Source: Bryopsis sp. KO-2023 (taxonomy: Eukaryota; Chlorophyta; Ulvophyceae; Bryopsidales; Bryopsidaceae). Taken from it: a stretch of 64,000 nucleotides of DNA. The notes under the pieces were generated by a model. That model saw nothing but the letters and a program-made list of their open reading frames with translations. It had not been told where the DNA came from and did no database searches. The position numbers were made by a program, and so were the translations under genes. Location: contig BSYQ01000006.1 of the NCBI GenBank assembly GCA_030272585.1, forward strand, positions 2,133,001-2,197,000, given 5' to 3'. Shown here one piece after another: positions 214 through 24,577 of this stretch (its first letter is position 1; the number at the start of each line of letters is the position of its first letter).

Positions 214-984
214 GTGCGATTGCAGGAGGACCACGCCCCCAGGGACGTGGTCGCGCTCGCGGGGGAGTTTGAGCGTTTGACTCCAGGGGACTCTCAACCC
301 CAGGGGGGGGGGTCGGATCAGCTTACCGACGCGTCGTCGGTTCGGAACCCGTGGGGGACCCCGTCCTCTGTCTCCTACGGTTTCCCAGGTTGGGAAGGTT
401 CGCAGATCCTAGGATCGGAACAGGGAGCGGCTCCCGCCCAGGCATCGGGCTCAGGTTTTCGCGACCAGGCGTGGTCTCCGGCTTTGTCCGCGGCGGAACT
501 GTCGGGCATGTTACCAACTCCGGAGTCCACGATGGCCTGGGCTGTGAGCGAGGGAGCCCGCAGGGCCTCTCCTGTTCCGTCGCGCGCGGCAACCGTCAAT
601 ATTCCCCCGCCTAGGCGGGCTCCCCTCTATCCTCCAGGCTTGTTGCGGCCAGGCTCGGCCGTTCAAAGTGAGGGCGTTCCCCCGCCTTTGCGGGCCCCTC
701 TGTCTCCTCCAGGCGTGTCGCGCCAGGTTCGTTCGGTTTCTCCGCGACCAGTGACTCCTCCGGTATCCCCATGCCCCTCTCCGTTGTCCCAGGGCAGGAC
801 GTTTCGTCGGATCCCTGCGCGTTCGAACGTCCCTAGGGACCCTACGGATCGCACCCCGGACGCGGTAGGCGCCCGGTGGGCTGTGGCTTCCGGCAGGAGC
901 CCTTATATCCATCGCGCGCCTCAGCCGCAGGAGCCACTCCAAGACTGTGGGTTTATTCCTGCGGTAGGCCGTGGAAACCCCTAG
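214..984 (+). CDS. DIRS Gag-like N-terminal region, proline/arginine/serine-rich
   Basis: An open frame of 256 codons whose first codon is GTG; the first in-frame ATG is at 508. The product is rich in Pro, Arg and Ser with repeated PPRRAP- and PPG-like stretches and has no recognised domain. Its stop at 982-984 lies inside a CCTAGG palindrome. Composition runs on smoothly into the start of the next ORF (from 1207). A GT at 964 and an AG at 1206 would join the two in phase, so this may be the first exon of one Gag-like protein. Family assignment rests on its place upstream of RT in a DIRS-type element, not on sequence similarity. Confidence 0.45.
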   Translation: MRLQEDHAPRDVVALAGEFERLTPGDSQPQGGGSDQLTDASSVRNPWGTPSSVSYGFPGWEGSQILGSEQGAAPAQASGSGFRDQAWSPALSAAELSGMLPTPESTMAWAVSEGARRASPVPSRAATVNIPPPRRAPLYPPGLLRPGSAVQSEGVPPPLRAPLSPPGVSRQVRSVSPRPVTPPVSPCPSPLSQGRTFRRIPARSNVPRDPTDRTPDAVGARWAVASGRSPYIHRAPQPQEPLQDCGFIPAVGRGNP

Positions 985-1206
985 GGCTTTGTTTGCAGGG
1001 AACAGTGACCTTTCAGGGTGGCTTGCAGAATGGGGTTGTTTTGCTGGCTTTCAGGTTCCCACTGCTGATTAATGTTTCTGGGCTTGTCAAAATCTCTTTG
1101 GGGGGGTGCATGTATTTGTGTGAATGCTGTGAGAGGTAGAGGGCAATTTGCAGGCTAGCTTGCCCATGGCTGAAGTGTGTCTGTGGTGCATTGTTTCGTT
1201 TCTCAG
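964..1206 (+). other. Possible 243-bp intron joining the two Gag-like ORFs
   Basis: GT at 964-965 follows an in-frame GCG codon. AG at 1205-1206 follows a pyrimidine-rich tract and precedes an in-frame GGT codon of the next ORF. Both boundaries are phase 0, and composition is Pro/Arg-rich on both sides. The donor is weak (GCG|GTAGGC). This is inference from phase and composition only. Confidence 0.35.
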
Positions 1207-2448
1207 GGTCATTTTCGTCGAGACAGGGGCCAGCCCCACCGACACAACCCAGCCCCTGGGAGTCCGTTCCGGGATCGGGGTAATTTTTCCCCTAGGGACC
1301 TTCAGCCGCACAGGGAGCGATCCCCCAGGGGCGTCACCCGGCCAGACTATTGGTTACTGGCACGCTCGTTCAATAGTGTGACCTTTCCCCCCCGGATGGA
1401 CTATTTTTCCATTCCGGTGATGGAGGTTTCGTGCCGGATGCAGGAACGCCCTAGGGCGGTTTCTGCCCCTTACACCCACGAACAATGGTTCGCGGTAGAT
1501 ATCGCTACCGATATCGGAGGGAAGGTCGTGTTGCTCGCCCCGGCTTGCTTTTTCTCTAGAGATCCCCCCGTTCCTAGGAACGGGGCGTTGTTTCTGGGCG
1601 GGATTGACGTCCTGGCGGAGGAGAACGTGGGTGCACCAGTGCCTTTCGTTTTCATGCCCCCAGGGGAGCGTTTGCTGCCGCACGCGGGTTTTCCGGTGCC
1701 CATCGTGGTCCTCGCCCTCTCCGACGACTTATACCCTAGGGTTTCCCAGGCTTTGTTCCTGGCTCTTCGTGGGCGAGCGTTTGATGGGCTTGTTGCTGGG
1801 CAGCCTTCGGACCAGGCGCTGCGCCAGAAGTTCCCAGCCCTAGGGCCGACAGCAGCGGGGCCAACAGCGGCGGAGTCGTCATGGGAGTGGCTGGACATTC
1901 ATTCCCTGGGGGATCTGGTGGGCGCGCTGACCCAGTTCATTGGGTTCGTCCGAGGACGCGTTACGAACGAGGGAGCGGAGACGGGCAATTGGGCCCACTT
2001 GTGGGACATGGCGGAGGAGCCTCTAGGGGCGGTTATTCGGGAATGGTTCACTCCGGATTTGGACTTGAAACGAGCGGGGCTCCTCGGGGCGCATATCTAT
2101 CTCTGGTTGCTGGCGGTGGCGTTTCCCAAGGTGGCGCGTCAGTGGGGGGGGGTCTGCGAGCACACGTCGCAGGCTCGGCCTAACTCATCCCTAGGGATAA
2201 AAACAATCGCTCCTAGGGCCAAGAATTGGCGTCGGCACGTGGCTTTCCGGTACTTGGGCGACCACTCTATTCCTAGGAGCTGGAGGGACGCCACCTTCCT
2301 TGAAACCGTGCAGCAGGGTTCGACCACCGCCATCAGTTTCCATTCGTTGCTCCAGTTCTTTATGGATAACTGGGGCGACGAAACTCGGAGGGCAGGAACG
2401 ACGCTAGCGCAGGAGGCGTCTTTTCAGGTCATGGCAGCAACGACCTAG
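1177..2448 (+). CDS. DIRS Gag-like ORF
   Basis: A 423-codon open frame with no recognised domain and no CCHC knuckle. The first 50 residues are Arg/Pro/Ser-rich; the rest is globular, with Trp-rich stretches and a hydrophobic segment near residues 300-320. Such an unrecognised ORF before RT is typical of Gag-like ORF1 of DIRS elements. The stop codon (2446-2448) is formed by the TAG inside a CCTAGG site. If the intron at 964-1206 is real, the first ten codons are intronic and the joined protein is about 660 aa. Confidence 0.5.
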   Translation: MSVVHCFVSQGHFRRDRGQPHRHNPAPGSPFRDRGNFSPRDLQPHRERSPRGVTRPDYWLLARSFNSVTFPPRMDYFSIPVMEVSCRMQERPRAVSAPYTHEQWFAVDIATDIGGKVVLLAPACFFSRDPPVPRNGALFLGGIDVLAEENVGAPVPFVFMPPGERLLPHAGFPVPIVVLALSDDLYPRVSQALFLALRGRAFDGLVAGQPSDQALRQKFPALGPTAAGPTAAESSWEWLDIHSLGDLVGALTQFIGFVRGRVTNEGAETGNWAHLWDMAEEPLGAVIREWFTPDLDLKRAGLLGAHIYLWLLAVAFPKVARQWGGVCEHTSQARPNSSLGIKTIAPRAKNWRRHVAFRYLGDHSIPRSWRDATFLETVQQGSTTAISFHSLLQFFMDNWGDETRRAGTTLAQEASFQVMAATT

Positions 2449-2674
2449 GTTTGTTTGTTCGGGTTGTGGGGGAAGGAGAACGGTGCCAGTTTCGGCCAGG
2501 TTGGGTTTTCGAGTACAGTCATTTGAATGAGTGGGCTTTCCTTTGATGGTGAACTTAGGTTCCAGGGGCAGTGGTGGGAATCGAACAGTTCTGGGTTACA
2601 CAGACTAGAGGGGGGTTGTTTGCAGTGGGTAGGAACTTAGGTTCCTTGGTAGTTAGTGGACATGTCTACAGGTG

Positions 2675-3019
2675 TAAAGGATTTCGGGTGATTTGCTGGT
2701 TTCGGTCTCACAACTCCCCCCAGGGGCAACTATTCTTGCAAAGTAAAGGATTTCGGGTGATTTGCTGGTTTCGGTCTCACAACTCCCCCCAGGGGCAACT
2801 ATTCTTGCAAAGTAAAGGATTTCGGGTGATTTGCTGGTTTCGGTCTCACAACTCCCCCCAGGGGCAACTATTCTTGCAAAGTAAAGGATTTCGGGTGATT
2901 TGCTGGTTTCGGTCTCACAACTCCCCCCAGGGGCAACTATTCTTGCAAAGTAAAGGATTTCGGGTGATTTGCTGGTTTCGGTCTCACAACTCCCCCCAGG
3001 GGCAACTATGCTTACAAAG
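2675..3019 (+). repeat. Five tandem copies of a 69-bp unit
   Basis: Units start at 2675, 2744, 2813, 2882 and 2951. The first four are identical; the last differs only near its 3' end. The length is 23 codons, so the array stays open in one frame (2571-3065), but that protein resembles nothing I know and I do not call it a gene. Each unit carries the 9-mer TGGTTTCGG and a CCCCCCAGGGG tract. The array lies between the Gag-like ORF and RT, a region of 680 bp with no other feature. Confidence 0.95.
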
Positions 3020-3129
3020 TCTTAAGTCCTCCCACCCCGGTCGTCGGGGTGTGCCGTGCATCTGATTAGTTTACACTCGACCACTGATGTTCTAACGTGC
3101 CCGTCGGGCGAGGGGGGCTGGGTTAGGCG

Positions 3130-5700
3130 GTGGCGCCCTCTTTAGGGAGTCGCTCAACCGTGACTACCATCACTTCGGGCTGTCATCCTACAGCCCTCGT
3201 TTCATTCGGTGTTTGGATCCTGTCCTGCATTAGTTGGGCACGGCTAGCCGTCAACCCTTGTCTAACGTTTGGCCATTCTCAACAAACGGTGGTGCAGGCA
3301 GCCCCAGGTCCTTCAGAGGTCGAGGAGCCCCTGGACCTCGACCACTCTTTGGCATCAGAAGCCCTTTGGGAACAGTTGGACGGGGATCCACTGGTGTCGG
3401 GGCAGTATCTGCTCTCATCATGTCGAGGTGTCACTGTAGTTCCCCCCGTGCCTAGGCCTACGTACCCAGTGGCACCTGATGTTTTGATGACTCGCGCTCT
3501 CGACCTGTTGCCTCGGTACAGGCACTCGTCTCCGGAGTTGGACTCCGCCTACGCTACTCCGATTCGCCCTAGGGTGCAAGAGTTCCTGTTGGACGATCAG
3601 AATTACTGTGCTGGAGCTATTCATGCGCAGTATGATCAGTGGGTTCGTTACCTTCACGCTGAGGGCCCCTTTGCAAGAAAGGCGGAGGTCTTGGGATGGA
3701 TTCGGGGAGGTTACGACGTTCCCTGGACATCGCCACATGTGGCTAGCCAAAAAGAACATCCTTTCTATAAACGAAAGATGGCGAGAGTGCGGGCAATGCT
3801 CAGGCAAGCTCTTCCCCTGTCCACCGAAAAGGAGCGCGCAGGGATGCTCCAGGGCGACCGACCACACCGCATTTGGTTCTCAAACCGTAAGTCCACGGTG
3901 GCGGAGGGCGTTTTCGTGGATGGAGCGTTAGAAAAAATGGTAAAATCGGGAGCGATCTTTCCATGGTCAGACCATATGGACATCGATGTGAAAGTCGTCA
4001 CGCCGCTAGCGGTGGTGACCAATCGTAAAGGAAAGAAACGGCTCGTCATGGATTTCCAATACGTCAATGCCTTTGTGGAGTACCAGCCGGTGAAGTACGA
4101 GTCTCTAGAGACTGTGGCAGGGCTCGTCCGGCGGGGGTGGTGGTTGCACACAGCGGATCTCAAGTCGGGTTACCACCACCTAGGTGTGCGGGAGGCTGAT
4201 TGGCCTTTTTTAGCAGTCCGTTGGCGTTCTCAGGTTTACGTTTTGCGAAGCCTCATGTTCGGCCTCTCGTCCGCCTGTGCCGCCTTTACCAGATTGATGG
4301 AGGTCGCGTATCGTCCTTTGAGGGCCGCTGGGGCTGACATGTCGTTTTTAATCGACGACCGCCTGGGCGGCGGCGATTCCCAGGAATCCGCTCGACGGGA
4401 TGCTATGTGTTGGGCCACAGCTGGGACGGCCCTTGGTTTTTGTTTTGGCCTGGATAAAAACGACTGGGAGGTGCGCCAGCAGGTGGTCTACCTAGGTATG
4501 ACGGTTAACACGGAGACAGGACGCTTTGAAGTGCCTGAGGACAAGGTGGATTATTTTTTGGGGAAGTGTGACGCTCTTATGGAACGCGACACCGCCACAC
4601 CACGTGAGATCGCCCAACTGGCCGGTCTGTTGGTGTCCTTCCGACAGGCAATTTTGCCCGCTAAAGCGCTAGCACGGACTCTACATTTCTGGTTGCGGGG
4701 AAAGAAGTCATGGGACGAGGACTGCGGAGCGCTGTCCGAGGTTCAGGCGGAGGTGGGTTTTTGGCGCACCCAGGTGCGGGCCATGAATGGCATGGAATGG
4801 GTGCGACCGGGGCCCACAGTGGTGGTGGTCGGCGACGCCTCGGACCATGCATGGGGAGCTTTCACCCCGTTTGGCGAGCTCGATGAACCAGTCCAGGGTT
4901 TCCTGCCAGCGGGATGGAAAGGACCAGAACGGGACTCAACGGGGCGTGAGATGTTTGCGGCACTGTTCGCTGTGACTCATGTTCTCGCTCGCCTAGGCGA
5001 CTCGTTAAAAGGGGGGACGGTTGTTTATCAGACTGATTCGCAAGCAGCGTATTATGCTCTGTCGAAAGGGAAGGGCACCTTAGCCAATCACCCTATGACG
5101 CGGGAGATCTATGTGGCGGCCTGGCAGCACCAAGTCGATGTAAAATTTTTGTGGGCTCCTAGGATTGACCCCTGGCAGAAGCGCGCGGACGACTTAAGTC
5201 GTCTGGAGCACTCGGTAGATTGGGAATTCTCTCCAGTGGCGGTAGATTTTGCGTGCTGGAAAATCACCTCGCTCAAGTGGGCTCATCTGAGGCGGGAGAG
5301 TTTGGCTTGGGATTTCTTTGCGTCCGCTAACACCGCCAAGGCGCCTTGTTTTTTCGGTCGTTATTGGGAGGAGGGGGCGGCAGGCGTGGATGCCATCACA
5401 CATGCGTGGCCAGCCCCTGAGGAGCACTCTTTTGCCTGGGTTTTTCCGCCTGTGGCTCTGACCGCGCGGGCCCTTCTCAAGATAACGGCTAGCCGGTATC
5501 CCGCTATTGTGGTTACGCGCTCGGGGGTGCATTCATGGACACCGCTGCTGCGGCGCATCGCACAGGGGACTTTTACCATGCCCCGCATGTTTAAATGGCA
5601 AGGGAAAAGGGAACGTGGGTGGTGTTTCCGATCCACTGGCCTAGGCCAGGTTGCAAGTGCAGAATGGGACGTTTCTTGGGTATCCACCAAACAGGTTTGA
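3130..5700 (+). CDS. DIRS reverse transcriptase-RNase H polyprotein
   Basis: 856 codons. RT lies at about residues 270-470, with the first catalytic Asp in TADLKSG (D343) and the active-site box FLIDD (D409-D410). RNase H follows at about 565-700, with acidic motifs GDASD, REMF, TDSQ and KRADDLSR. The tail (about 725-830) contains a DFFASANTAKAP motif and an FPPVALTARALL stretch, like the segment after RNase H in DIRS and related elements. There is no integrase or protease. The frame opens with GTG; the first in-frame ATG is near 3487, so translation may begin from a spliced or shifted upstream frame. The frame is undamaged and faces the recombinase gene 145 bp downstream. Confidence 0.9.
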   Translation: MAPSLGSRSTVTTITSGCHPTALVSFGVWILSCISWARLAVNPCLTFGHSQQTVVQAAPGPSEVEEPLDLDHSLASEALWEQLDGDPLVSGQYLLSSCRGVTVVPPVPRPTYPVAPDVLMTRALDLLPRYRHSSPELDSAYATPIRPRVQEFLLDDQNYCAGAIHAQYDQWVRYLHAEGPFARKAEVLGWIRGGYDVPWTSPHVASQKEHPFYKRKMARVRAMLRQALPLSTEKERAGMLQGDRPHRIWFSNRKSTVAEGVFVDGALEKMVKSGAIFPWSDHMDIDVKVVTPLAVVTNRKGKKRLVMDFQYVNAFVEYQPVKYESLETVAGLVRRGWWLHTADLKSGYHHLGVREADWPFLAVRWRSQVYVLRSLMFGLSSACAAFTRLMEVAYRPLRAAGADMSFLIDDRLGGGDSQESARRDAMCWATAGTALGFCFGLDKNDWEVRQQVVYLGMTVNTETGRFEVPEDKVDYFLGKCDALMERDTATPREIAQLAGLLVSFRQAILPAKALARTLHFWLRGKKSWDEDCGALSEVQAEVGFWRTQVRAMNGMEWVRPGPTVVVVGDASDHAWGAFTPFGELDEPVQGFLPAGWKGPERDSTGREMFAALFAVTHVLARLGDSLKGGTVVYQTDSQAAYYALSKGKGTLANHPMTREIYVAAWQHQVDVKFLWAPRIDPWQKRADDLSRLEHSVDWEFSPVAVDFACWKITSLKWAHLRRESLAWDFFASANTAKAPCFFGRYWEEGAAGVDAITHAWPAPEEHSFAWVFPPVALTARALLKITASRYPAIVVTRSGVHSWTPLLRRIAQGTFTMPRMFKWQGKRERGWCFRSTGLGQVASAEWDVSWVSTKQV

Positions 5701-5845
5701 GGGTTTTAGGTGGTAGCTGTGGATTAAATCAGGGTCAGTCTATTTCGGCCACACCAGGCCAGGGGTTGTTCGTATGGGAACGTTCTTACAAACCATCGTT
5801 TAAATTGTTTGTCTAGACTTCACCGATGTTTCACATCCGTCAAAA

Positions 5846-6883
5846 TTAGAATTCTTCATCCCCAAGGGTAGCTATGGGGCCATCTGTCCCCATGGGGTCG
5901 TCCCTCAGGTCACGCTCAAACAGATCCGTCGTCTCCCCAGGTTCTGGCCCCAGGAATACTTCAGGGGGAAGGCCCACAGGCAGCATCATATCATCAGTGG
6001 GATCAGGCTTGGTTTCTTCCTGGGTGTAGGCACCTAGGTGCCTTCCAGGGTCAAGGTAGCGGTATATAACACGCGATCGCACTCCTGATAAAGCCTGGAG
6101 GTCCGCCACGGACGCCCCTTGATCATACTGATGTTGCAGGCTCCCTCGTTTAAAGCTGTACGCCGTGTACGCCTCGTCGATGGAGGTGGCCCGACTATAG
6201 ATACGCAGGTGGCGTGTCACGGAGCTCGCGTTAGCAGGGTTCTCGGTTAGCCGACCCCTTCTAAAGTCCCCTCGGGGAAACAGAGGGGATTCCGCGGTGC
6301 CAGGCACCAAGGCCAGGAGGCGCTGTAGGTTCCACACAGGACACCCTAGGGTGGGGAATCCTCCCTGGGCAGGCATTATCGCTCTATGGCTGCGGGCTCC
6401 TGTCGCCCGTTTGACAAATCTAGGTGTCACGGCCACTTCTTCGGTTAGAACGCGGCCGTGGCAATACAAGGTTTGGGCCCGGGCTATTCCAGTGGCGAAT
6501 AGGGGCGCCACCTCCACGCTGCCACGAAGATACCCGCTATATTGCGGATTGGAACGCGAACAAGTCGTCCATAGAAAGGCGAACAACGCCGCATTCACCA
6601 CATGTATTTGGCCTAGGCCAGTGTCCCCTTTTCGAGTAGCCGATATGTATGCGTCTTCTACTGCGCGCATGAGCTCCAAGTAGTGGGCTTGGGTCATAGG
6701 TATAGCCGCTTTTTCGCTCACTCCTTGGTGGACAGATCCATTGGTGTAAGCCCGGAGCCAGTCAGTTACTAACAGACTTCGCAGAGGATTCCCTGAGGGG
6801 GTGATCGTGTCATATTTTCTCCGTCGACCCTGGCGGGCATATTCAGCCCGCAGTTGCGCTAGCGCCTGTTTTACGGAATTATG
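5846..6883 (-). pseudogene. Tyrosine recombinase, C-terminal part (DIRS), split by element 1
   Basis: 345 codons plus stop on the minus strand. The catalytic C-terminal half has an AYSFKRG box, which takes the place of the usual HxLRR box with Tyr for His, and an IYRYLD segment with the nucleophile Tyr. The remaining 116 N-terminal codons are at 23950-24297. Removing element 1 and one copy of its GTGAG duplication joins the two in frame into 461 codons, a normal size for a DIRS recombinase. DIRS recombinases integrate a circular DNA copy by site-specific recombination, which explains the lack of a target duplication. It runs against RT, as in Kangaroo-type elements. The insertion makes this copy a pseudogene. 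Confidence 0.85.
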
Positions 6884-6888
6884 GTGAG
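6884..6888 (+). repeat. Target-site duplication GTGAG, left copy (element 1)
   Basis: GTGAG precedes the 5' LTR; the matching copy is at 23950-23954, after the 3' LTR. Confidence 0.95.
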
Positions 6889-7100
6889 TGTAGTCGGGTC
6901 ATTGATTTTCGGGCTAGTTAGAGCCACGTGATTGACTTTCTCGGTGTCCGACATAGAGTTAGGATAAAGGGCACTATTGGGATTGTATCGAGGACCGTAT
7001 TTTGACCTGTGTAAGACATTGACGCTCGATAGAGCTTGTGACTCCGACCACTCCTCCCACACGACTTGACTCCCTCTCATAAACAACGTGACCCTCTACA
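6889..7100 (+). repeat. 5' LTR of element 1
   Basis: 212 bp, begins TGTAG and ends CTACA, matching 23738-23949. A GGATAAAGG stretch near 6960 could serve as a TATA box. Confidence 0.95.
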
Positions 7101-7101
7101 A

Positions 7102-7113
7102 TGGTTTCGGAGC
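7102..7113 (+). promoter_or_regulatory. Primer-binding site, element 1
   Basis: TGGTTTCGGAGC, one base after the LTR. It is complementary to a tRNA 3' end of form GCTCCGAAACCA. It resembles the plant initiator-Met site TGGTATCAGAGC but differs at two positions. Confidence 0.85.
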
Positions 7114-7195
7114 TTTAACCTCTCAACGAGGAACGATCGGATAAGGAACGAGGAATCACAGAGAGACGTCACGCTCAACTTTCCAAACTGGGACC

Positions 7196-10100
7196 ATGGC
7201 TAACAGAAACCTCGGACATAAAGTGAAACGATACGAGGAAGAGAAGTTCGATCGAAACAGACGCAACGACCGCCAGAAATCGTCGAACGGCGATGGTCGG
7301 TGCAGAGGTTTGAAACACCGTGTTGGGACGGTTGAAAGGAACATGAACGAACTCCTTAAAGGACAGAAAACGTTACTGGAACAGTTGAGCGAGATCGTGA
7401 AAGAGTCGCGACGTCTGACAGATGCTGCGAAAAGTGTGAAACGCAGAGATCAACAAACGACGGTGGGACGAGCTTCTCGTAGGACTGGCAGACGCCAGGC
7501 GAGGAAGTTACACCAGTCGGAACGGTCAGAAAACAAAAGCGCGAGCTCTGGAACGGAGAGTGACGATGGTGTGACGGACGTCACAGGCGTCAGGTCAAGG
7601 AAAATGCATGTCGAGCATGCAGAGGACGATGCGGCGTCCACGAATGCGGGTGCGCTCGATGATCGACCTGAGGGGCAGATTAAGGCGAAGGCGAGTCCAT
7701 GCGCCATGATGCCTCAGGAACGGGTTGGCGTGCATCAGGCCCGTGATCATCAGTCGGAATCAGGGGTGATTTCGAGAAATCCAGGGAGGGATTTCAAAGG
7801 AAGCGATGACGATGATGAAGCGTCGCAGAGCGCAGGAGCATCGTGTGACGGAAAGGAGCCGACAGCGGTGGATCTAAGGGTGACCGGAGTGGGATCCAAG
7901 ACATCGCTGCTGAAATTACACGGCTCGCTGGGCCATGCAGCAGTACGAGTTCTGGTCGATAGCGGAGCGTCGACAGAATTCATTTCAGAACGGTTGGTAA
8001 AACGGTTGGGATTAAACATCGATGCATTCGAAAAGCATCGACCTGTGACATTAGCAGATGATTCGGTCGCGAATGTCGTCGGATCATGCACGACGACGAT
8101 TCGATTTGGACCATATCGAGTTCGAAGAAAATTTTTGGTCCTGGCTGAATTGGTGCATGATGTTATCTTTGGGAAAAGTTGGTTGTCAGATGTGAACCCT
8201 AAAATCGACTGGGTATCACACAAACTGAAAATCTGTCGTCCTGGAAAGAAGGATTTGGAATTACAGGGGTACTATGGCGATGATGCTGGAGGTGGCAACA
8301 GTGCGCGGAACCTAAATCTGATTTCGGCAAAACAAATGTCGAAGATCATGCGCAGAGGTCGCGATGAGGTGTTTTCGCTGTGGATTCATGATGTCGGAGA
8401 TGATGATGATTCGGAGGATTTCATGGAGTGGAAAAATTCAGAGGAATGTGGGGGCATAAGAACTGGAGGAGAATTGAGAATGGCTGAACTGCTGAATGAG
8501 AAGTCGATTGCTGAAAGACAAGACAAGTCGAAAGGAACTGCAACTCACAAAAAGGAAGCTACAGAACTGGAAACGGAACTGAACACAGAAATCGGGAAAT
8601 CGGGAAGGACTGAGAGAGTGAACCAAAGGAAGGAATCGAACACAGACCACACTGGATCAACAAATAAACTGGGGAAAAGAATTGATGGACCAAGTGGAAC
8701 TCAAGCAAATTCTATCACGAACGTTGAGACTCCTGACCAAGCTAAGGCAAATCAAATAAAGGAGGAACCAATGGGAGTGCCCAAACATGGAAGTGTGAAT
8801 GTGGATTCGAAACTGGAACACATGATCGAAAAACTGCCCAAGGAACTGGAAAAACTCAAGGCAGTGCTTCGTCGTCATGCAGATCGGTTTCCGGAGGATT
8901 TACCGACGAAGCTTCCACCCCACAGAAAATTCGACTTTGAGATAAACGAACAGGAAGGGGCGCAGCCGGTTTCTCGACCGATATACCGGTTAAGCCCGGT
9001 CGAACTCAGAGAACTCAGGAAACAACTCGACTACCTTCTCCACCACGGCATGGTCCGTCCCTCACACAGTCCATACGGAGCTCCCGTCCTGTTCGCACCA
9101 AAAGCAGATGGGACTCTCCGTTTTTGCATCGACTACAGGATGCTTAACAAACAAACACTCCGCTCGAAATATTCGCTCCCACGAATGGACGAAATGGTGG
9201 ACCAAGTGGAAGGAGCGCGCTGGTTCACGAAAATAGACTTAAGGAGCGGTTACTGGCAGGTCCGCATCAAGAACGAACACATCCACAAGTCGGCGTTCCG
9301 AACTCGGTACGGCCACTTTGAATGGCTAGTGATGCCGTTCGGGTTCGCTGACGCGCCAGCCTATTTTATGCGGCTGATGAACGACACCCTCCGCCCCTAT
9401 CTGGATAACTTCGTTCTCGTGTTCCTGGACGATGTGTTAATTTTCAGTAAGGATGCCGACTCGCACGCCGACCACGTGCGTTTGGTGCTGGAAAGGCTGG
9501 AAGAACAAGGTCTGTATGCGAAGTGCAGTAAATGCGAGTTCGGAAAAAGCGGCGTCGAGTTTCTGGGAACGTGGCTGGAACGGGATGGAACTTACCCCAC
9601 GGCGGAGAAGATTAAGTCGATAACAGAATGGCCGACGCCGAAGTCTGTACACGACGTTCGCAGTTTTTTAGGACTGTGTTCGTTTTACCGAAGGTTCGTC
9701 AGGAACTTTTCGGTGCTCGCTGCCCCTTTGACGAATCTGACGAAAAAACACAATGGTTGGAATTGGGGACGGCTAGAGCGGCAGGCTTTCGAGTCTCTAA
9801 AAACGGCTATGACAACGACGCCAGTGCTGAAGCACTTCGACGACGAACTTCCTGTGGTGGTGGCGACCGATGCCTCGCAAGCGGGGATCGGCGGTGTGTT
9901 GATGCAGCGGACAGAAAAAGGGCTACACCCCATTTGTTTCGAGTCACACAAGTTCACGGAGGCCGAACAGAACTATCCTGTTCACGAGCAGGAGCTCCTA
10001 GCGATTGTGCACTGCCTTAAAAAATGGCGCACATATCTGGAGGGGCGGCACTTCGTTTTGAGAACGGACAATGCGAGTTTGGTGTGGCTGGATACGCAGA

Positions 10101-12921: not shown

Positions 12922-12923
12922 AT

Positions 12924-12935
12924 TGGTTTCGGAGC
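12924..12935 (+). promoter_or_regulatory. Primer-binding site, element 2
   Basis: TGGTTTCGGAGC, two bases after the LTR, identical to the site in element 1. Confidence 0.85.
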
Positions 12936-13066
12936 TAGGCAAGAACTTTAAGTTCTTGAGATCGAAACTTGTGAACGTGGCGCAACAAACGTTTTTGTTT
13001 GTTTGTTTGGTAGAGAGAAACTCCAACCGTGGTTGTTGAGTACTCCCAAATAGTGGCTGAGAGACC

Positions 13067-16133: not shown

Positions 16134-19100
16134 CCGCCAGGCAGGAAACTGCTTCGTCTGAGCCTGGCCGACGCAAACGTCGTAAGCGAAACAGAGTTCG
16201 TAGGCGGCGTAGGAAGCATAGATCAAAAGTAGGTGCCTCGAAAAAGGTTAAAAGTACTCACAGCGGAAAACCTGAGGAGCGGACTAGTACACCGCGTGAA
16301 GAGAGAACAGAGACACTCTCCACATCTACCCAATCGGCACATGACAACTGCGATTGGAAAAATGAACAGAAGGAAAGCACACCGGATGAGATGGACGCGC
16401 CTCATGCGTCATCTGCATCTCTTCCCTCTGTTAGTGAATCTGTGGGCTCATTGGAGTCACAGAGTAGTCTACAGGAGTCCCTGCCTGCAGACGTAGACGA
16501 TAGTGGGTCAGAAACAACCCAGCGGTCTACCACAGAGCGAGTTAATGTGTCAGAAGTTCGATCAACTTCGTCAACCAAGGGTGACACATGCCCTCTGTTA
16601 AAAATTCAAGAAGTGCCTGTGAGAGGGTACGAAGTAAAAGCACGGATCAAGACCACGGACCTTTATGCATTCATTGATTGTGGAAGTACCGCAAACTATA
16701 TCAATGATAAGGTAGCGCGTGATCTCGGGTTGTCGATTACACCAAGCTCAAAGAGAGCAATGTTGGCAAACGGAGATATTAAAGAACTGGCTGGCAGCTG
16801 TAACAACCTCCGAGTAAAGATAGGAGGGCTGAAGTGCAAAATGAAAGCGGATCTGTTCCCAGACCTTGGTTATGACCTAATATTGGGCATGCCTTGGTTG
16901 CAGAAAGAAAACCCCCGCATAGACTTTCAGCAGAATGAGATTTCAGTTTGCAAAAACAGCCAAGTGTTTCATCTCCCGTTGCGTCATCCAACCCAAGAGA
17001 GTATTGAACCTGAACGAAAAGTACAGTCGATACTGCAAGAAGTGTCAGTGACTGAGTGTTCAGCTAAGAGAATGATGCGTCATCTCAAAACAGAGACAGC
17101 ATTCATGGTTGTAGTGCAAGAATCTGAAGAGAAAGCTTTAGGCCAACATGAATTGCCTGACGCAATAGAGCGAACACAGCCATTCAACACTGAGGATGAG
17201 ATTGGCAAACTTATTCGTTCAGACACCCCTGCCGAAATTAAAAAGGTGGTAGAAACACACCGTGGTGTGTTCCCTCGTGATCTACCCCCAGGGATCCCTC
17301 CGAAGAGAAAAGGTCATGAGTTTAAGATAGACCTGGAGGATCCAACACCTATCCATCGTCCAATATACAAGCTTTCACCAGCAGAGCTGGATGAAGTGAA
17401 AGCACAAGTGGACTACCTTCTGGAACAGAAGAAAATCAAACCATCCGAGTCCCCTTGGGGCGCGCCAATCCTATTTGTACCGAAAAAGGATGGAGGCTTA
17501 AGGATGTGTGTGGATTACAGGTGGATCAATAAGGTGACGGTGAAAAACCGATATCCTTTACCCCTGCCAGAAGAATTGATGGATAGAGTGTTCAAAGCCA
17601 AAGTGTTCTCAAAGTTAGATCTGCGATCAGGCTACTGGCAATTTCCAGTAAGGCCATCTGATACAGATAAAACAGCGTTCCGCACGAGATATGGTCACTT
17701 TGAATTTTTGGTAGCGCCTTTTGGGCTAACCAATTGCCCAGCGCAATTTCAAACTCTAGTGCAAGACCTACTCACAGAGTTTTTAGATGATTTTGTTGTT
17801 GTCTTTATTGATGACATACTCATCTTCTCTGAAAACATGGAACAGCATGCCGAACACTTAGAGAAAGTCCTGTCGCGACTAGCAGAATATCAGCTTTTTG
17901 CTAAGGCAAGTAAAAGTGAGCTGGCTGTCGCAACAGTAGACTATCTTGGCTACCGCATTAGCGGAAGTGGGTTAGAACCACAGGAACAAAAAGTGAAGGC
18001 AGTGAAGGAGTGGAAGGAACTACAGAGTGTTAGCGATGTACGTAGTTTCCTTGGAATGGTTTCATATTACAGGAAATTCATTCCCCAGTTTGCACATGTT
18101 GCTGGACCACTCCATGACTTAGTGAAAAAAGACCATCCCTGGAGATGGGGACAGGTTGAGCGTGGCGCATTCAATGAACTGAAAAAGCGTTTAAGTCAAG
18201 CTCCCGTCCTTATTTTTCCAGATGCGTCACTGCCTTACACTGTGATCACTGATGCGTCGAATGAGGCCATCGGTGCCGTGTTAACACAGGATCACGGAGA
18301 GGGGCTACAGCCAATAGCTTACCTCTCACGTAGATTCAAGCCTGCCGAGCTTAACTATGCACCATACGACAAAGAGTTGTGTGCAATATGTTATGCGATG
18401 GTGCAGTGGAGACATTATCTAGAAGGTTGTGCGGGTGGAGTAACAGTGTTCACTGACCACCAACCTCTGACGCATATTCTGTCGCAGAGGAACCTTTCTA
18501 GAACCCAAGCAAGATGGCTTGAGGCGGGGTACCTGACTTCGATCAACCCCAAGATCTCCTATATCAAAGGCAAGGCTAATGTGTTAGCAGATGCTCTCTC
18601 CCGCAGTGTTCCTAAGCCCGTGGAAACTGCGATGAACATTTCCACTTGGCAAGTGCATCAAGCAAGCCAAGACGAGTGGAAACAAGCCCTCCAAGCTGAT
18701 AACTCCTTGGTGAAGATATTGCGGAAGCTTGAGAGTGGCGAGGAAGTTGAGGGATATTTCCTCAGAGAGGGAATACTCTGGACGGTCCCAAAAAGAGGAT
18801 TAGTCGAGAAAGTGGTGGTTCCTAAAGGCCAGCGCAATAAGATTATGAAGGAGTGCCATGAGACACCTTCAGCAGGCCATACAGGACCAGCGCGAACAGG
18901 AGAAATCCTAGCGCGGCGATATTGGTGGAAGGGGTGGATGAATGAGTTGAAGGCATTTGTGCGCGAATGCCCTGTGTGCCAACAAATAAAGGCTGACACA
19001 CAGAAGCCTATGGGCTTACTTCAACCCCTGCCAATACCTGAGCGGAAGTGGGAGCAAATTACCACTGACTTGGTGACAGATCTACCAGCATCCAATGGGT

Positions 19101-20131
19101 TTACTGCTGTAGCTGTCTTTGTCGATAGACTTACCAAGTTTGTGCATTTCACCCCATGTACTAAAGAGCTTACCGCTGCAGGATACGCCCAACTTTTTAT
19201 CGAACATGTTTACCGCAACCATGGCCTACCTAAAGTGATTGTGTCTGATAGAGACCCTCGCTTTACCAGCAAGTTCTGGCAGACGCTTTTTAAAGCTCTG
19301 GGTACAGAGATTCGTATGAGTACAGCTTACCACCCTCAGACGGATGGGCAGAGTGAGGTTACCATACGTACTTTGGAAAATTTCCTGAGGCCATATGCTG
19401 AGAGGTATCCCCATAAGTGGGTTGAGTATTTACCTACAGCAGAGTTTGCAGCAAACAATGCAGTGAATGCGAGTACAGGGTTCGCACCTGCATACTTGAT
19501 GTATGGGTACCATCCAGAAACACCAAACATTGGTGGGACGGCAACGCAATTTCAAGTGGAAGCAGTTAAGACTATGGTAGCACGGATGGCACAGGACTTA
19601 GATACCGCAAAAGCATATTACTCGAGAGCACAACACAGAATGTGTGTGAGTGCAAACAAGAAGAGAAAAGATATTGCTTTTGAGAAAGGGGATAAAGTCC
19701 TGATAAAAAGTCGTTTTATTCCGTTGGCTGCTTTGAACAAAGTGAGTCCAAAACTGCGCCGTCGATTTGTGGGTCCCTTTGAAATTGTGGAGAAAATATC
19801 AAAGGTGGCTTACAGAGTTCAACTTCCGGAAACATGGCTCATACACCCAGTGTTTCATGTTTCTAAGTTCAAGCGTTATCACGCCTCGAGTGATAACAGC
19901 AGGCAAATACAACCTCCAGAAGGAGAGTTGATTGGTAGCGAAGTAGAGTATGAGGTCGAAAATATCCTAAGGGCTAGAGGTAAACGCAATCGCGAATACC
20001 TAGTGCTGTGGAAAGGATACGATCTACTTGACGCTACTTGGGAACCTGAAGCTAATCTGGTTAACGCACCAGATATACTTCGCGCATTTAAAGAGAAAGA
20101 ACGAAAAGAGTTGCAGAAAGGAAGAGAATAG
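16122..20131 (+). CDS. Pol of element 2 (AP-RT-RH-IN-chromodomain)
   Basis: Read in the -1 frame after the slippery run; the first ATG is only at 16391. A basic, Arg/Lys-rich stretch (16140-16260) comes first. The protease has an unusual DCGST active site (Cys where Ser or Thr is usual). RT has FIDDILIF. RNase H follows. Integrase has an HHCC finger (HETPSAGH ... CPVCQQ) and DDE motifs TTDLV, VSDRDPRF and GQSEVT. A C-terminal chromodomain starts EYEVENILRARG. No stop or shift interrupts it, so it looks functional. Confidence 0.93.
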
Positions 20132-20581
20132 GGAAACAGAGTGTTTGATGGCTAAGGTGGAACTCCTTATTGCAAGGGGGCGCGAAAAAGGATACCTTAG
20201 AAAAACTCTGTCGACTTCCAAACCAACTCTTTAACTTTAATGCGTTAGGTGCCTAAGTTATTTGGCTGGCGCAGTAAGTGTAGCTTCAGTAGTACTTTAG
20301 AAACCGGGCAAACGATGTCACATTCGAGATAGTGTGGTTGTTCCGAGAAAACCCCTATCAAGTGACGTGTTGAGGTGGTCTTGACGAGACTCCAACCGAG
20401 CAAAACGTTGGTGTCTCACCCCAATAACCCAACGAGGAAAGTGTACGAGTCACCCAGCCTTATAAGCGCAGCCCTCGAACCATTTTGCCCTAGTGTTTGT
20501 GTGAACGGAGCGAGCTCCTGAGTGAAAAAGAGTCTAAAGACGCACAAACCGTTGTTTATATCTTTCTTTCCGACAAACATA
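20132..20581 (+). promoter_or_regulatory. Pol to ORF3 spacer with TATA-like box
   Basis: 450 bp without an ORF of note. TTATAAG at 20460-20466 lies about 120 bp before the ATG of ORF3, so ORF3 may be transcribed from its own start site; splicing is the alternative. Confidence 0.4.
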
Positions 20582-22396
20582 ATGGCTGCCGACACACCCG
20601 CCGCAATTATTGCGAGGTTGGAAGCGGAGGTAGCTCAAAAAGAAGAGGAGCTGCAGCACTTTACGTCGACCGCAGAGGAAGTGCTGCAGAACAATGAGGC
20701 CTTAACCCGGCAGCTCTCAGAGTTGAGTGACCGGACGAAAGCAGCTGAGGCTGCGAAGGAGGCAGCGGAGAAAGCCAAGGATAAGGCGGAGGCGGAAAAG
20801 AAAGAAGCGGAGGACAAGACCAAGGTCTTGGAAGAAAAATTGGAAGCCATGAAGCTGAAAAAGCAAAGGTTCCAATCTCACATGATGGCTAACCATCGTG
20901 AGAATGACCTCCGTAAACAAGCTCTCGGGGGAATGGTGGATCGATTTACCGCGGTAGAGGAAACGCTGCAGCGAGCTGTAGCAACCGCGTGGAGTGCAGC
21001 AGCCAACAACCTTAAGAAGGAATTGGCAGAACAAGAGCTGCAGATCGATTTGCTGGGAGAGTCCCTCAGAGACGGCTCTGAAAAACTTCAAGTGCAGAGC
21101 GAAACAACGGACAAGATGCTGCGTTTGAACCCGCCGGTACCAGCACCACGGGTACGCGAAGAACTGGATCGCCAAGTCCAAGTTCTGTTGTCAAACGCAA
21201 CACTTGATCTGGAACCGTCCAAGGACGATGATGCGGGAGGCTCAAGCAAGGGCAAGGGGAAAGGGAAAAACAAACGTCCAAGCTCGCCGTGTAGGGATGA
21301 AGATCCACACGGAAAGAGAAGGCGAGAGGACGGTGACGATGAAGGTGGTGAGCCACCGAGGGATCGTATGCCTGGAGATGCAGCAAGAGCCAACTTGTTA
21401 CTCAAGTTAAAGGCTGCCGCATTAAAGACTCCAGCACCCTCACAACCAGCACCAACAGTTCAGACTCCCGGAGATGAGGCTACCGCAATAGCACCGGGGG
21501 AGGACTTATTCGACATGAGAGAGGAGGAGCTTTTGGACTTGGATTTTAACGAAGAAATTGACTTCGGCAGTCCACCTCCTAGGCTCGAAGGTCCTAGTTC
21601 TGAACTGGAGGACGGGGAAATCAGGAATGATGAAGGGCCAAGCCAGGTGACAGAGGTTCAGCGTGCGGTCCATCCACCGTTGGAGTTAGCTCCAACAGAA
21701 GCAGCACTTCGGGCTTTCCGAGAAAAGGTTAAGCTCAGGAGATTAAGGGCGGCTGCTCAGGACAAAGTGGATGCTGCACCTAGCGAAGTGAACCTGTCAC
21801 GGGAGGATATCGAGGAGGCTTGCAACCCCATCACTGCGTCAGAGAAATGGCCGAAGGTCCAATATACTAACCCCAGGGACCGAGCCTTGCAAAATTACCG
21901 CGGCAACCGGCACTTTCACGAGTTGCCCATGTGCATTTGGTGCGGGAGAAGCCCAATGCAGGCAAGTGCTCAGCGGCTGACGCAGAAGAAGTATTCCGTC
22001 CTTCCTTGTGGGTATCACCTTGTGTGTGATGCTCATTGGTTGGCATACTCGATGCTGGGGCGCATCGTCACGGCGGTCCAAAAAGTCGCGGAAGTGGACA
22101 ACAAGTCCATCGCCACCGTCTCCCCATTCTCTCTACCTGCCCATATGTTGAAGCTGACACGCTCGACGTTCGAAGAAATCCCTCCGTTCCCGGCTGAGCA
22201 CGAGAAGTTGCCACACTGCAACATGTGTGTGAAGCGGCAGCTCAAGGTGTCCGGCATCACAAGGGATCTGCCATTCCTTAAGTCCAAGAGGGTGGCTGCC
22301 GCATTTGATCCCTGTGTCCGGTATCGTGCAGTGCAGCAAGCGCATGCGCAAGAGCAGCGTGCTATCCAGCAAGCGCAAGCGCAGGAACAGCGTTAA
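20582..22396 (+). CDS. Accessory ORF3 of element 2: coiled coil plus RING-like zinc domain
   Basis: 604 codons from ATG in good context (ATAATGGCT); the frame is open a further 20 codons upstream without another ATG. Residues 5-190 are a Glu/Lys/Ala-rich coiled coil. Next is an acidic/basic disordered part with a nuclear-signal-like PHGKRRR cluster. From about 455 a Cys/His domain reads CIWCG - x20 - CGYHLVCDAHW - about x60 - HCNMC, the CxxC...CxxHxxCxxH...CxxC spacing of a RING-H2-like cross-brace with a long last loop. It ends with AQEQR-type Gln-rich repeats. No signal peptide or membrane segment is present, so it is not an Env. Function unknown; a ubiquitin-ligase or RNA-binding accessory role would be inference. 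Confidence 0.75.
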   Translation: MAADTPAAIIARLEAEVAQKEEELQHFTSTAEEVLQNNEALTRQLSELSDRTKAAEAAKEAAEKAKDKAEAEKKEAEDKTKVLEEKLEAMKLKKQRFQSHMMANHRENDLRKQALGGMVDRFTAVEETLQRAVATAWSAAANNLKKELAEQELQIDLLGESLRDGSEKLQVQSETTDKMLRLNPPVPAPRVREELDRQVQVLLSNATLDLEPSKDDDAGGSSKGKGKGKNKRPSSPCRDEDPHGKRRREDGDDEGGEPPRDRMPGDAARANLLLKLKAAALKTPAPSQPAPTVQTPGDEATAIAPGEDLFDMREEELLDLDFNEEIDFGSPPPRLEGPSSELEDGEIRNDEGPSQVTEVQRAVHPPLELAPTEAALRAFREKVKLRRLRAAAQDKVDAAPSEVNLSREDIEEACNPITASEKWPKVQYTNPRDRALQNYRGNRHFHELPMCIWCGRSPMQASAQRLTQKKYSVLPCGYHLVCDAHWLAYSMLGRIVTAVQKVAEVDNKSIATVSPFSLPAHMLKLTRSTFEEIPPFPAEHEKLPHCNMCVKRQLKVSGITRDLPFLKSKRVAAAFDPCVRYRAVQQAHAQEQRAIQQAQAQEQR

Positions 22397-22591
22397 GGAG
22401 GAGGGAAAAGGAGTTATCGTCGACCAAGTGTGTGCGTGCAGCAGCTGTCAGAGACGTCAGAGCAAGAGACAGGTCCAAGACAGTTGGGTGTGGGTATGGG
22501 AGTGGGTGAGTTTTGTGTTTGTGTTTTTGTGTTTTTGTTTTTCTTTGTGTTTTGGTGTGCGTGGGCGCCCACTTTTTGCGGGGGGGGCGTA
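22397..22591 (+). other. 3' untranslated part of element 2 with polypurine tract
   Basis: T/G-rich 195 bp ending in a G-run (22580-22588) just before the 3' LTR, the expected place of the plus-strand primer. Confidence 0.7.
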
Positions 22592-23012
22592 TGTTAGTCT
22601 CTTTTAGTGCTCTACGAGGTAGTTTGGGATAGAGCCGAGGGTGGCTGACGCATGTGGGTTCACGAGTAAGACAGATTAGACCCAGAGTTTGGGGCATGCG
22701 TCAGCGTACTACACTTAGGGGTACTTAAGAGGCCCACTCGTTGTTTTGACACTCATAGTTACTTTGTAAGAACTCGGGATTCGTGGGATTGGTGTGTTCC
22801 CGCTTGTGTGTGTGTTTGTGTGTGTGTGTTAAGTGTTTGCCTGACGCAATCACTTCCCAACCCAAGTGCTCTAGTAGCGTTCACAACCGCGCTAGCTAGA
22901 GAGTTGTCTAAAGCAACAAACCCCACAAGTATACTTGCGTTAGCCAGCAAGTTATCACGAATCCAACCAACACAGCCGACCACTATTGCGTCACCCACAA
23001 GCTTCACTATCA
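22592..23012 (+). repeat. 3' LTR of element 2
   Basis: 421 bp, matching 12501-12921; followed by the GGTGG duplication. Confidence 0.95.
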
Positions 23013-23017
23013 GGTGG

Positions 23018-23737
23018 TGACGACTTTGCGACGATCGAGGCGAAGGACGACCAGAATACCCACAGACTGACGGAGTGCGAGGGAGCGGTTATCGGATTGC
23101 GTGATGGGTACTACCGCTAGGCAACCGCAGACTGCTTTGGGTAAGTCGCTGGAAACCGATCGAAGTCGAAGTGGAAGTTTTTAGAAAAGAGGATTCGAAA
23201 AGGAAGTGAAAAGAAAATCGAATTTGGGTAGCCTGGGAAGAGGCTAGTGTTTTGAAACCTGAATGACCTGATTGTTTATTGACTGGGGATTTCTTATTTT
23301 TACTGGAACATTTGGGATTCTTGGGACTGGATTCCTGTGTTTTGATTTTTCTGTACTCCCTAGCACTTCCTGGACTTTGAATGATTTGATTATGTTTCTG
23401 GAGGGGAGTTTGCTAGAGTGCTGGCTGTGAATTGTTTATTTGCTAGCTGGGAGTCAGTGAGACATTGATTGATTGACTGTTTATTGAATTGACTTGGGCT
23501 GGATTCGAACTCGAGTGGGCTAGAATGAAATGAGCTGAGCTTTGCCTTTTGGGATTGGCTCGCTTGAGAGAACGGGATAGTGGGACGTTTTTCTCTCTAT
23601 TCTCGGATTGATTCGGATTCGGACTTTGACGGACTTTGGACTGATTTTTGGGATACGATCCTGAGTTGCTCTTTTGGATTTTGATAGATGTGACCTCACT
23701 CGCCTGACTGGAGTTTAGTCGGTGAGGTGGAGGGGAT
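23018..23737 (+). other. 3' untranslated region of element 1
   Basis: 720 bp, T- and G-rich, with no ORF of note. It ends in the purine tract GGTGAGGTGGAGGGGA before the 3' LTR. It is the continuation of element 1 after element 2. Confidence 0.8.
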
Positions 23738-23949
23738 TGTAGTCGGGTCATTGATTTTCGGGCTAGTTAGAGCCACGTGATTGACTTTCTCGGTGTCCGA
23801 CATAGAGTTAGGATAAAGGGCACTATTGGGATTGTATCGAGGACCGTATTTTGACCTGTGTAAGACATTGACGCTCGATAGAGCTTGTGACTCCGACCAC
23901 TCCTCCCACACGACTTGACTCCCTCTCATAAACAACGTGACCCTCTACA
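23738..23949 (+). repeat. 3' LTR of element 1
   Basis: 212 bp, matching 6889-7100; followed by GTGAG at 23950-23954. Confidence 0.95.
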
Positions 23950-24297
23950 GTGAGGCATCCTGAGACCAGCACTTGTGAGAGTTCGGCTGTGGGCGTGGAG
24001 TTCAGGCAACCACGATATTTCCATAAAGCTCAGGACGTCTATGGGGGCCGCCGTCCTCAGCGTCACAGGTCGGGCTAGCGCGAGCTGAGAGATCCACTTT
24101 TCCCATGCTTTCCACACCCTAGGGTGTGCAGGCACGCCTCGAAGTCGACGATCATGCGCCAGCCGTTGGTGAACCAGTTCGCTGCCGTACTGAGCGAGCC
24201 GCAACAGTTGCACCTCCGACCGACGGGGATCGGCCATTCGCAGGTTCCGAGTGGTTGGTTCCGCCGCAGGGGTAGCGAATTGGACGTCCGGCTTCAC
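23950..24297 (-). pseudogene. Tyrosine recombinase, N-terminal part (DIRS)
   Basis: 116 codons from ATG at 24297 on the minus strand, ending exactly at the element 1 junction and continuing in frame at 6883. The region is helical, Arg/Leu/Trp-rich, as expected of the DNA-binding N-terminus of a DIRS recombinase. A 16-bp CCTAGG palindrome (24113-24128) lies inside it. Confidence 0.8.
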
Positions 24298-24343
24298 ACC
24301 AAGCGTTAGAACAGGAGAGTAGTTCGGTTCTCGGAGGTTTCAG

Positions 24344-24577
24344 GTGGACCCGAATCGCCTTCGGGCCAGTCATCTCTCTCAGGTTCCTAGGAACCGTTTC
24401 AAGTCAACAGGGATTCAATCCAGGTCGTTCGCCCGGGCTTTCAACGATCTTGGAGAGGCATTTGGTCGCTGGTGGTGGATCGACCACCTCGTGGCCAAAC
24501 AGGGGGAATACCGCAGGCAGAGCCTTCGCAAGGCAACAATCATTCAGAGGGGAAGCGACCCACGGGAGAGGGTTTAT
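24344..24577 (+). CDS. Small basic ORF divergent from recombinase, cut by 465-bp element
   Basis: Starts with ATG 46 bp from the recombinase start and runs the other way. The product is Arg/Ser-rich and not recognised. With the 465-bp element removed it continues a short way past 25051. It may be a real small DIRS ORF or chance. Confidence 0.25.

Follow-up and report, generated by a model that had tools for sequence, protein, structure and literature searches.

A DIRS-type retrotransposon of the green alga Bryopsis sp. KO-2023 with some forty CTAG-centred palindromes of variable but complementary arms

Short palindromes have been proposed as dimerisation sites in the RNA of several retroelements, a kissing contact being followed there by an extended duplex; for Ty3 the candidates are short palindromes (DS/PAL6), three of the six lying within the gag open reading frame (ORF) (PMC11381356), and for Ty1 they are PAL1-3, with kissing loops as the proposed contact (PMC5454406). 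In RNA viruses and hepatitis B virus packaging signals are dispersed as many stem-loops with one loop motif (RGAG), and a further iterated palindrome, HIP1 of cyanobacteria (GCGATCGC), is a fixed octamer that is found genome-wide and has been linked to methyltransferases (PMC4390886). Here we describe a retrotransposon of the DIRS type in a stretch of 64,000 nucleotides (nt) of Bryopsis sp. KO-2023 (contig BSYQ01000006.1, positions 2,133,001 to 2,197,000, called the window below), the body of which carries some forty palindromes that share the centre CTAG and differ in their arms.

The sites of the DIRS element have something in common with each system. Like the Ty1, Ty3 and retroviral dimer palindromes they are short self-complementary sequences in a retroelement, a self-complementary loop on a stem as in an RNA dimer initiation site; however in Ty1 and Ty3 the sites are single or few and confined to the 5' end, whereas here about 40 lie all along the body with one common 4-nt centre. 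With dispersed packaging signals they share the form of degenerate stem-loops, a common loop motif on variable stems spread through coding RNA, but the loop is here itself palindromic, the symmetry is strict and some arms have two pairs only. An earlier note on this DNA, made from the sequence without database searches, had likened the pattern to HIP1, and both are indeed palindromes iterated in high number; as a kind the likeness fails, since the DIRS sites consist of a 4-nt core with free complementary arms, no fixed oligomer extends beyond that core, and they are confined to one element family with no genome-wide spread (257 control CTAGs taken from part of the genome are at chance).

The element body in the window (1-6887 and 23958-24576, plus strand) holds 40 CTAGs, of which 25 have C-G as the innermost arm pair (CCTAGG), nine have G-C (GCTAGC) and three T-A (TCTAGA), the remaining three being unpaired there. 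The earlier note had counted 25 CCTAGG, 13 of them extending to perfect palindromes of 12-20 bp with the longest (20 bp) at 1566-1585, and these figures hold, 23 lying in 1-6887 and two in 23958-24576, with seven more elsewhere in the window; its centre is constant and symmetric as it had said, but CCTAGG was too narrow a choice, the kept part being CTAG. Counting outwards from the core, arm positions 1-8 are complementary in 37, 35, 28, 23, 16, 13, 9 and 10 of the 40 sites, so that symmetry is close to background by position 7. All four pair types are present at positions 2-5 (at position 2, GC 9, CG 16, TA 5 and AT 5), and as the arm bases are free but mutually complementary it is pairing that is kept, not a fixed sequence. 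Of 120 possible Watson-Crick pairs at positions 1-3 the sites have 100; permuting right arms among sites gave a mean of 41.9 and reached 100 in none of 4000 shuffles. In the permutation test on all 16 palindromic 4-mer centres in the element, CTAG scored a z of 11.6 and no other centre more than 1.8. Perfect palindromes of at least 10 bp number 34 in the element, 24 of them centred on CTAG. As the earlier note had said, the arms are not copies of one repeat; they vary from site to site, which rules out copies of one inserted repeat, and an artefact of composition is ruled out by the permutation of right arms together with codon-preserving shuffles.

These shuffles were 1000 in number, ran over the four ORFs of the element and kept each protein and its codon usage. 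They gave on average 13.6 CTAGs (maximum 23) against 31 observed, and 2.7 CCTAGGs (maximum 9) against 21; arms of at least two pairs were found at 27 sites (mean 1.2, maximum 8) and of at least three pairs at 21 (mean 0.6, maximum 6), and unsymmetric CTAGs were rarer than expected (2 against about 8.8). Neither the number of sites nor their arm length is reproduced, which supports the earlier claim that selection acts on the nucleic acid, through the coding sequence. From the first CTAG at 409 to the last at 24387, sites occur within the plus-strand genes, within the convergent ORF of the minus strand and in intergenic sequence; coding sites are in two frames, and two ORF stops (TAG at 982-984 and 2446-2448) fall within sites, again as first noted. 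Of 23 leucine CTA codons 16 are within CTAG sites. Some sites stand at conserved positions of the reverse transcriptase (RT)/RNase H (H350 of YHH, L455-G456 and a consensus P-R), and must therefore have arisen there by synonymous choice and not by a change of the protein.

The sites are also more evenly spaced than random. For the 17 CTAGs of 1-2448 the coefficient of variation (CV) of the gaps is 0.48 (P 0.0016), and for the 19 of 3100-6887 it is 0.40, with none of 5000 random placements as even; the unsymmetric CTAG at 2605 was left out of these half-by-half tests, and with all covered CTAGs of the element, including 2605 and those of the right end, the CV is 0.65 (P 0.0022). A strict periodicity, such as nucleosome spacing would give, was considered and rejected, a Rayleigh scan not being significant, and evenness is all that is seen.

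The genome sequence used comprises 91.1 Mb in 28 contigs. In the 257 distinct control CTAGs, taken from the rest of the window, the eight first-listed CCTAGG loci, three other stretches of contig C1 and 27 RT-related loci (L020-L046), arm position 1 is paired in 75, position 2 in 66 and both in 22; in the window outside the element position 1 is paired in 26 of 111, which is chance. With controls at chance, we reject the idea that the genome or its RT-related elements show the pattern in general. The 27 loci, which are the best of 78 matches (53 of 1355 candidates were scored), presumably represent other DIRS families, several in near-identical copies, and in 408 locus-by-centre tests on them the highest z was 3.8 (GCGC in L021) against the 11.6 of CTAG in the DIRS element. 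L021 and its neighbour L022 (C4:6186985 and 6189917) are RT-related elements that form an inverted pair, and the value of 3.8 comes from several GCGC sites that repeat one another in inverted orientation. CCTAGG occurs 6493 times in 91 Mb, compared with 21507 for the reversed control GGATCC. Fragments related to ORF2 of the element were found on contig C2 alone, at five places with 39-65% identity over short parts, and arm positions 1 and 2 are both paired in one of the 28 CTAGs at those loci (L050-L054). Within the element itself the right end has seven CTAGs (25369, 25511, 25751, 25818, 26288, 26528 and 26595), the last three of which fall in the second B repeat, and arm position 1 is paired in none of them.

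The coding body was found in one more copy, which lies on contig C9, is broken by insertions and differs at 70 of 7125 aligned bases (99% identity). The earlier note had proposed to look for the sites in other copies, and this one retains 36 of the 40 CTAGs, having lost those at 1292, 2191, 5641 and 5813; the CTAG at 24387 is present in C9 (locus L060), outside the 39 that were aligned. Differences between the copies in arm positions 1-3 occur at 1736, 2023, 2213 and 4669, and one copy is always symmetric there, namely the window at 1736 and C9 at 2023, 2213 and 4669. These imperfect sites thus seem to have decayed, once inserted, from an active element that was more symmetric.

Three other loci share the element's terminal repeats (C5:2062472-2067546, C4:881976-886286 and C15:297177-320608). 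Queries with RT and gag gave no match at these loci, and they are probable non-autonomous partners. Their bodies were read except for a gap of about 200 nt each in C5 and C4 and about 19 kb of C15. They contain tandem units of 81-82 bp, some with GGTTCCTAGGAATC, some with AGCCCTAGGGTT and many without CTAG, and two more families of CTAG sites lie upstream; in the arrays consecutive CTAG sites are 81-325 bp apart, most commonly 163. By eye the arm sequences of all four families are unrelated to those of the main element, and arm position 1 is paired in all; with sense-strand G.U allowed, three of them have at least four consecutive pairs and the fourth has two pairs and then one mismatch. Such G.U pairs occur in all four families within arm positions 1-6, and one site variant, in C15, has A.C at position 3. 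The three CTAG types that adjoin the terminal block are unsymmetric, like those at the main element's right end. Diverged terminal repeats at C4:6465478-6474588 were rejected as a further locus, as the 3 kb read there resembles a Ty3-type insertion by eye.

Folding predictions separate the sites from control CTAGs. For sites taken in isolation a self-duplex of -10 kcal/mol or lower is predicted for 38 of 40 sites and 33 of 104 controls, and a 16-nt hairpin of -2 kcal/mol or lower for 27 of 40 and 9 of 104; in a context of 124 nt the closing pair has on average a probability of 0.29 at 39 sites compared with 0.002 at 105 controls. A scan of 1-7200 with Rfam found no known RNA family at the gathering score.

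Our tentative preference, which we hold with rather less than even confidence, is that the sites form a multi-site self-pairing signal in the full-length RNA of this DIRS family, by which that RNA is selected, dimerised or packaged. Each site would fold around its CTAG loop or form a duplex of 8-20 bp with its counterpart on a sister strand, and we infer that this takes place in the full-length sense RNA of the element rather than in single-stranded cDNA. The shared CUAG centre would allow loop-loop contact between any two RNAs of the family, autonomous or not, the contacts could then extend into site-specific duplexes, and the family's Gag would select the resulting dimer or condensate and package it for reverse transcription; in effect the genome would hold a dimer initiation site about 40 times over, with a common code which partner RNAs must share. 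The palindromic centre and the self-duplex predicted at 38 of 40 sites fit a contact between two strands, the same centre in partners with unrelated bodies suggests a cis-acting signal of shared machinery, and the position of the sites under both convergent genes and between genes, with none in the terminal repeats, is consistent with a full-length transcript. RNA dimer or kissing sites had been one of the roles suggested at first, and that role seems to us to fit best among the readings; second we rank a loop read by Gag, and third a folded single-stranded DNA.

A stronger form, which we consider unlikely as a whole, is a base-pairing password for the family, in which the retrotransposon and its parasites share dozens of CUAG sites, and family RNAs recognise each other by loop-loop contact and zip up with an identical sister at every site. 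If this were true, a distributed palindromic code and not a single psi site would decide which RNA enters the particle. As for a self-pairing signal in general, we know of no account of RNA choice by retrotransposons of the DIRS type. A signal that is distributed and evenly spaced, varies in its arms yet stays self-complementary, and is maintained across genes would give a genome a new means of labelling its own RNA, and the same centre in the partner elements makes the idea directly testable. In the open-access literature, subscription literature being outside the search, no paper that joins DIRS, CTAG and palindromes was found, and the available text of the best-ranked matches on CTAG/CUAG, packaging or dimer palindromes describes nothing alike.

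Several observations weigh against a self-pairing RNA signal. Self-pairing alone does not explain why CTAG was chosen over other palindromic 4-mers, and no CTAG symmetry is seen in the 27 RT-related loci (RT identity 23-28%). Within the family neither copy has symmetry at the CTAGs 2605 and 6420, the C9 body has one extra CTAG that is unsymmetric, and 12 of the 24 distinct 16-nt CTAG strings at the partner loci belong to the four site families; by their position we read the other 12, one of which (C4b:1363) has arm positions 1 and 2 paired, as parts of the terminal flank, of a fold-back insertion or of sequence specific to C15. Near sites the two copies differ at 9 of 468 positions, which is no rarer than elsewhere (61 of 6657), so that inserted copies seem no longer to be under selection. 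The closing pair exceeds 50% in the 124-nt context at 10 of 39 sites (0 of 105 controls), the antisense strand folds alike (9 of 39), and sites with arms of only two pairs are poor hairpins. Nor is RNA plainly preferred to DNA: at arm positions 1-6 G.T is found 13 times where 29.2 are expected and A.C 10 times where 25.0 are expected, and of the seven G.T at positions 1-3 the C9 copy lacks two. Arms are also enriched around CCAG although that loop is not self-complementary, and Gag homology is not detectable in ORF2, which has no family match.

The enrichment around CCAG is among the points that bring in a protein as the reader of the sites. On that explanation, which we find doubtful, Gag or another RNA-binding protein would read dispersed stem-loops with a CUAG or NYAG loop on any stem, and the palindromic nature of the loop would be coincidental. 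A constant loop on variable stems is the usual form of such signals, as with coat proteins and dispersed packaging signals, and loop variants with stems of at least three pairs on the sense strand are found for CCAG (8 of 59, 1.1 expected) and TTAG (3 of 16, 0.3 expected) but hardly for their complements CTGG (1 of 42) and CTAA (0 of 7). Two units of the C15 array have CCAG with the same arms, and sense G.U is present in all four partner families compared with A.C in one variant of one family. The strand difference is however weak (CCAG against CTGG, Fisher P 0.076), and the strand evidence for RNA as such is suggestive only; the arms of many sites are too short for a stable stem, non-CTAG loops with stems of at least five pairs in 1-6887 show no clear excess, making up nine of 14 listed where by our own estimate about seven are expected, and the self-complementarity of the loop is left unexplained. 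A masking of splice-acceptor-like TAG or CAG by stems was also considered and set aside, on the argument that it leaves the excess of CTAG unexplained.

Arm pairing would be equally good in DNA, and G.T is hardly better tolerated than A.C, which is what a signal in single-stranded DNA would give if the cDNA or a circular intermediate folded and was recognised by the RT or the tyrosine recombinase. The attC sites of integrons are recognised in this way, by structure rather than sequence; here sense and antisense fold equally well, and the element encodes a probable tyrosine recombinase (its motif seen by eye). Nevertheless about 40 sites along the genes far exceed the need of recombination or second-strand initiation, the terminal repeats, which are the place of recombination, are without sites, and known recombinase sites are longer than these, and we regard this explanation as improbable.

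A mutational origin, in which a nick or pause occurs at CTAG and fold-back copying then makes perfect palindromes with no selected function, appears more improbable again. Fold-back copying during reverse transcription or repair is known to correct quasi-palindromes, and such a process would cover the gain of symmetric CTAGs together with the shortage of unsymmetric ones and the loss of symmetry further out from the centre, and needs no reader of the arms; if it were at work, mutation in a mobile element would be shown to be biased strongly and in a centre-specific way. Set against this, the sites fit the protein and leave the conserved YHH, LG and P-R unaltered, CTAG itself is over-represented relative to the shuffles above, and no such change is seen at the right-end CTAGs or at 2605 in the same element, nor at the RT-related loci elsewhere in the genome. 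Double-stranded DNA sites for a dimeric protein, another of the roles first suggested, or for a CTAG methyltransferase in the manner of HIP1 are very unlikely despite the palindromic core, the even spacing and an RT relative (P0005) that bears PF05869, which we take to be a Dam-type methyltransferase, as a dimer reads its half-sites separately and, with every base permitted, would give the two arms no reason to match, and no methyltransferase domain was matched in the element ORFs scanned.

The element itself is a PAT/TOC/Kangaroo-type DIRS retrotransposon on the evidence of its split direct repeats, a plus-strand RT/RNase H and a convergent recombinase-like ORF; PAT-like, TOC and Kangaroo elements have been described with the same split repeats and RT/RNase H, the recombinase being inverted in some PAT-like elements as it probably is here, and the available text of that paper mentions no palindromes (PMC3266345). 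The left end lies 165 nt upstream of the window start. Repeat A (224 bp) at the left end is identical (100%) to 25909-26132, and the two copies of repeat B (483 bp, 25428-25910 and 26205-26687) are likewise 100% identical, giving the order A1 ... B1A2 ... B2 of the PAT/Kangaroo type. The element is split by a Ty3/Gypsy chromodomain element (6883-23957) in which a second one is nested; the outer is bounded by direct repeats of 221 bp (6883-7103 and 23732-23952) and the inner by repeats of 300 bp (12501-12800 and 22592-22891), both Ty3/Gypsy-like. The range of 405-24395 first given for the palindromes thus includes about 17 kb that is no part of the DIRS element. A 466-bp repeat (about 24577-25042) separates the body from the right end and recurs at 43522-43987 and 44118-44582, with at least three further copies inserted in the C9 copy; it has many inverted repeats of the type GTAACCGG and a stretch that is tRNA-like by eye, in which ARAGORN, run on the repeat, found no tRNA.

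Table 1. Features of the DIRS element and its CTAG sites, in window positions
Feature	Position	Strand	Remark
DIRS body, 5' part	1-6887	+	A1 split direct repeat at -164 to 59
ORF1, proline-rich by eye	214-984	+	stop TAG within site 981
Site GATCCTAGGATC	405-416
Site CCCGCCTAGGCGGG	606-619
Site GTCCCTAGGGAC	829-840
Site CCCTAGGG	979-986		one mismatch, then arms resume; ORF1 stop inside
Site GCTAGC	1154-1159		one G.T, then arms resume
ORF2, Gag-like by position only	1177-2448	+	stop TAG within site 2445
Site CCCTAGGG	1290-1297
Site CGCCCTAGGGCG	1447-1458
Site TCTCTAGAGA	1553-1562
Site CCCCGTTCCTAGGAACGGGG	1566-1585		longest, 20 bp
Site ACCCTAGGGT	1733-1742
Site GCCCTAGGGC	1837-1846
Site centred on CTAG 2023-2026	2019-2030		arm 1 T.G here; four-pair arms in C9 copy
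Site ATCCCTAGGGAT	2187-2198
Site CCTAGG	2212-2217		two-pair arms in C9 copy
Site TC CTAG GA	2271-2278		two arm pairs, then T.G
Site CGCTAGCG	2402-2409
Site ACCTAGGT	2443-2450		ORF2 stop inside
Exception, CTAG	2605-2608		arms unpaired in both copies
RT/RNase H ORF	3130-5700	+	RVT_1 E 2.9e-6, under Pfam cut-off score
Site ACGGCTAGCCGT	3240-3251
Site GCCTAGGC	3450-3457
Site CCCTAGGG	3567-3574		G.T, then pair
Site TGGCTAGCCA	3740-3749
Site CCGCTAGCGG	4003-4012
Site AGTCTCTAGAGACT	4100-4113
Site CACCTAGGTG	4177-4186		codons H350-L-G, beside invariant YHH of RT alignment
Site TACCTAGGTA	4489-4498		codons Y-L455-G456; L and G invariant in RT alignment
Site GCTAGC	4668-4673		three-pair arms in C9 copy
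Site TCGCCTAGGCGA	4989-5000
Site TCCTAGGA	5157-5164		codons P677-R678, alignment consensus P-R
Site CGGCTAGCCG	5486-5495
Site CTGGCCTAGGCCAG	5636-5649
Site GTCTAGAC	5811-5818		between convergent ORFs
Convergent ORF, probably tyrosine recombinase	5846-6721	-	motif read by eye only
Site AGGCACCTAGGTGCCT	6028-6043
Site CACCCTAGGGTG	6342-6353
Exception, CTAG	6420-6423		arm 1 T.G in both copies
Site TGGCCTAGGCCA	6609-6620
Site GCGCTAGCGC	6856-6865
DIRS body, continued 3' of Ty3/Gypsy nest	23958-24576	+
Site GCTAGC	24074-24079		9 of 12 arm positions complementary
Site CACACCCTAGGGTGTG	24113-24128
Site GGTTCCTAGGAACC	24382-24395
DIRS right end	25043-26687	+	B1 25428-25910, A2 25909-26132, B2 26205-26687

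The RT/RNase H ORF is assigned to the DIRS clade by its RVT_1 match and by RT relatives at 26-30% identity. Scans of viral contigs and genome contigs for DNA of RT relatives from other organisms found none. The convergent ORF, probably a tyrosine recombinase, matched no Pfam family and, below E 0.3, no PDB entry. For ORF2 no Gag homologue was found at E 0.001 among the 7993 best-sharing candidates, and a structure predicted from its single sequence has a mean pLDDT of 32 and is unusable. Apart from one internal residue the RT agrees (100% identity after rounding) with a protein of 653 aa that bears the label Pyruvatibacter sp. and is encoded on a contig of 6281 bp. The Bryopsis sp. KO-2023 culture, according to the available text of its description, yielded bacterial assemblies including a Pyruvatibacter (PMC12509668), and the label is probably a binning error, the 6281-bp contig being host DNA.

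Some smaller repeats were also seen. Five tandem units of 69 bp lie between ORF2 and the RT (2674-3018), a stretch without symmetric CTAG, and each holds CCCCCCAGGGG, a relative of the CTAG sites with a CCAG loop. On contig C1 six CCTAGG pairs with a spacing of 90-96 bp are found at 280001-309711, and at loci L014-L016 two of the 18 CTAGs with arm position 1 paired extend to position 2. Within ORF1, 602-657 and 677-731 form a diverged direct duplication (82% identity), one copy of which has CCCGCCTAGGCGGG and the other CCCGCCTTTGCGGG, with the arms kept and the centre different.

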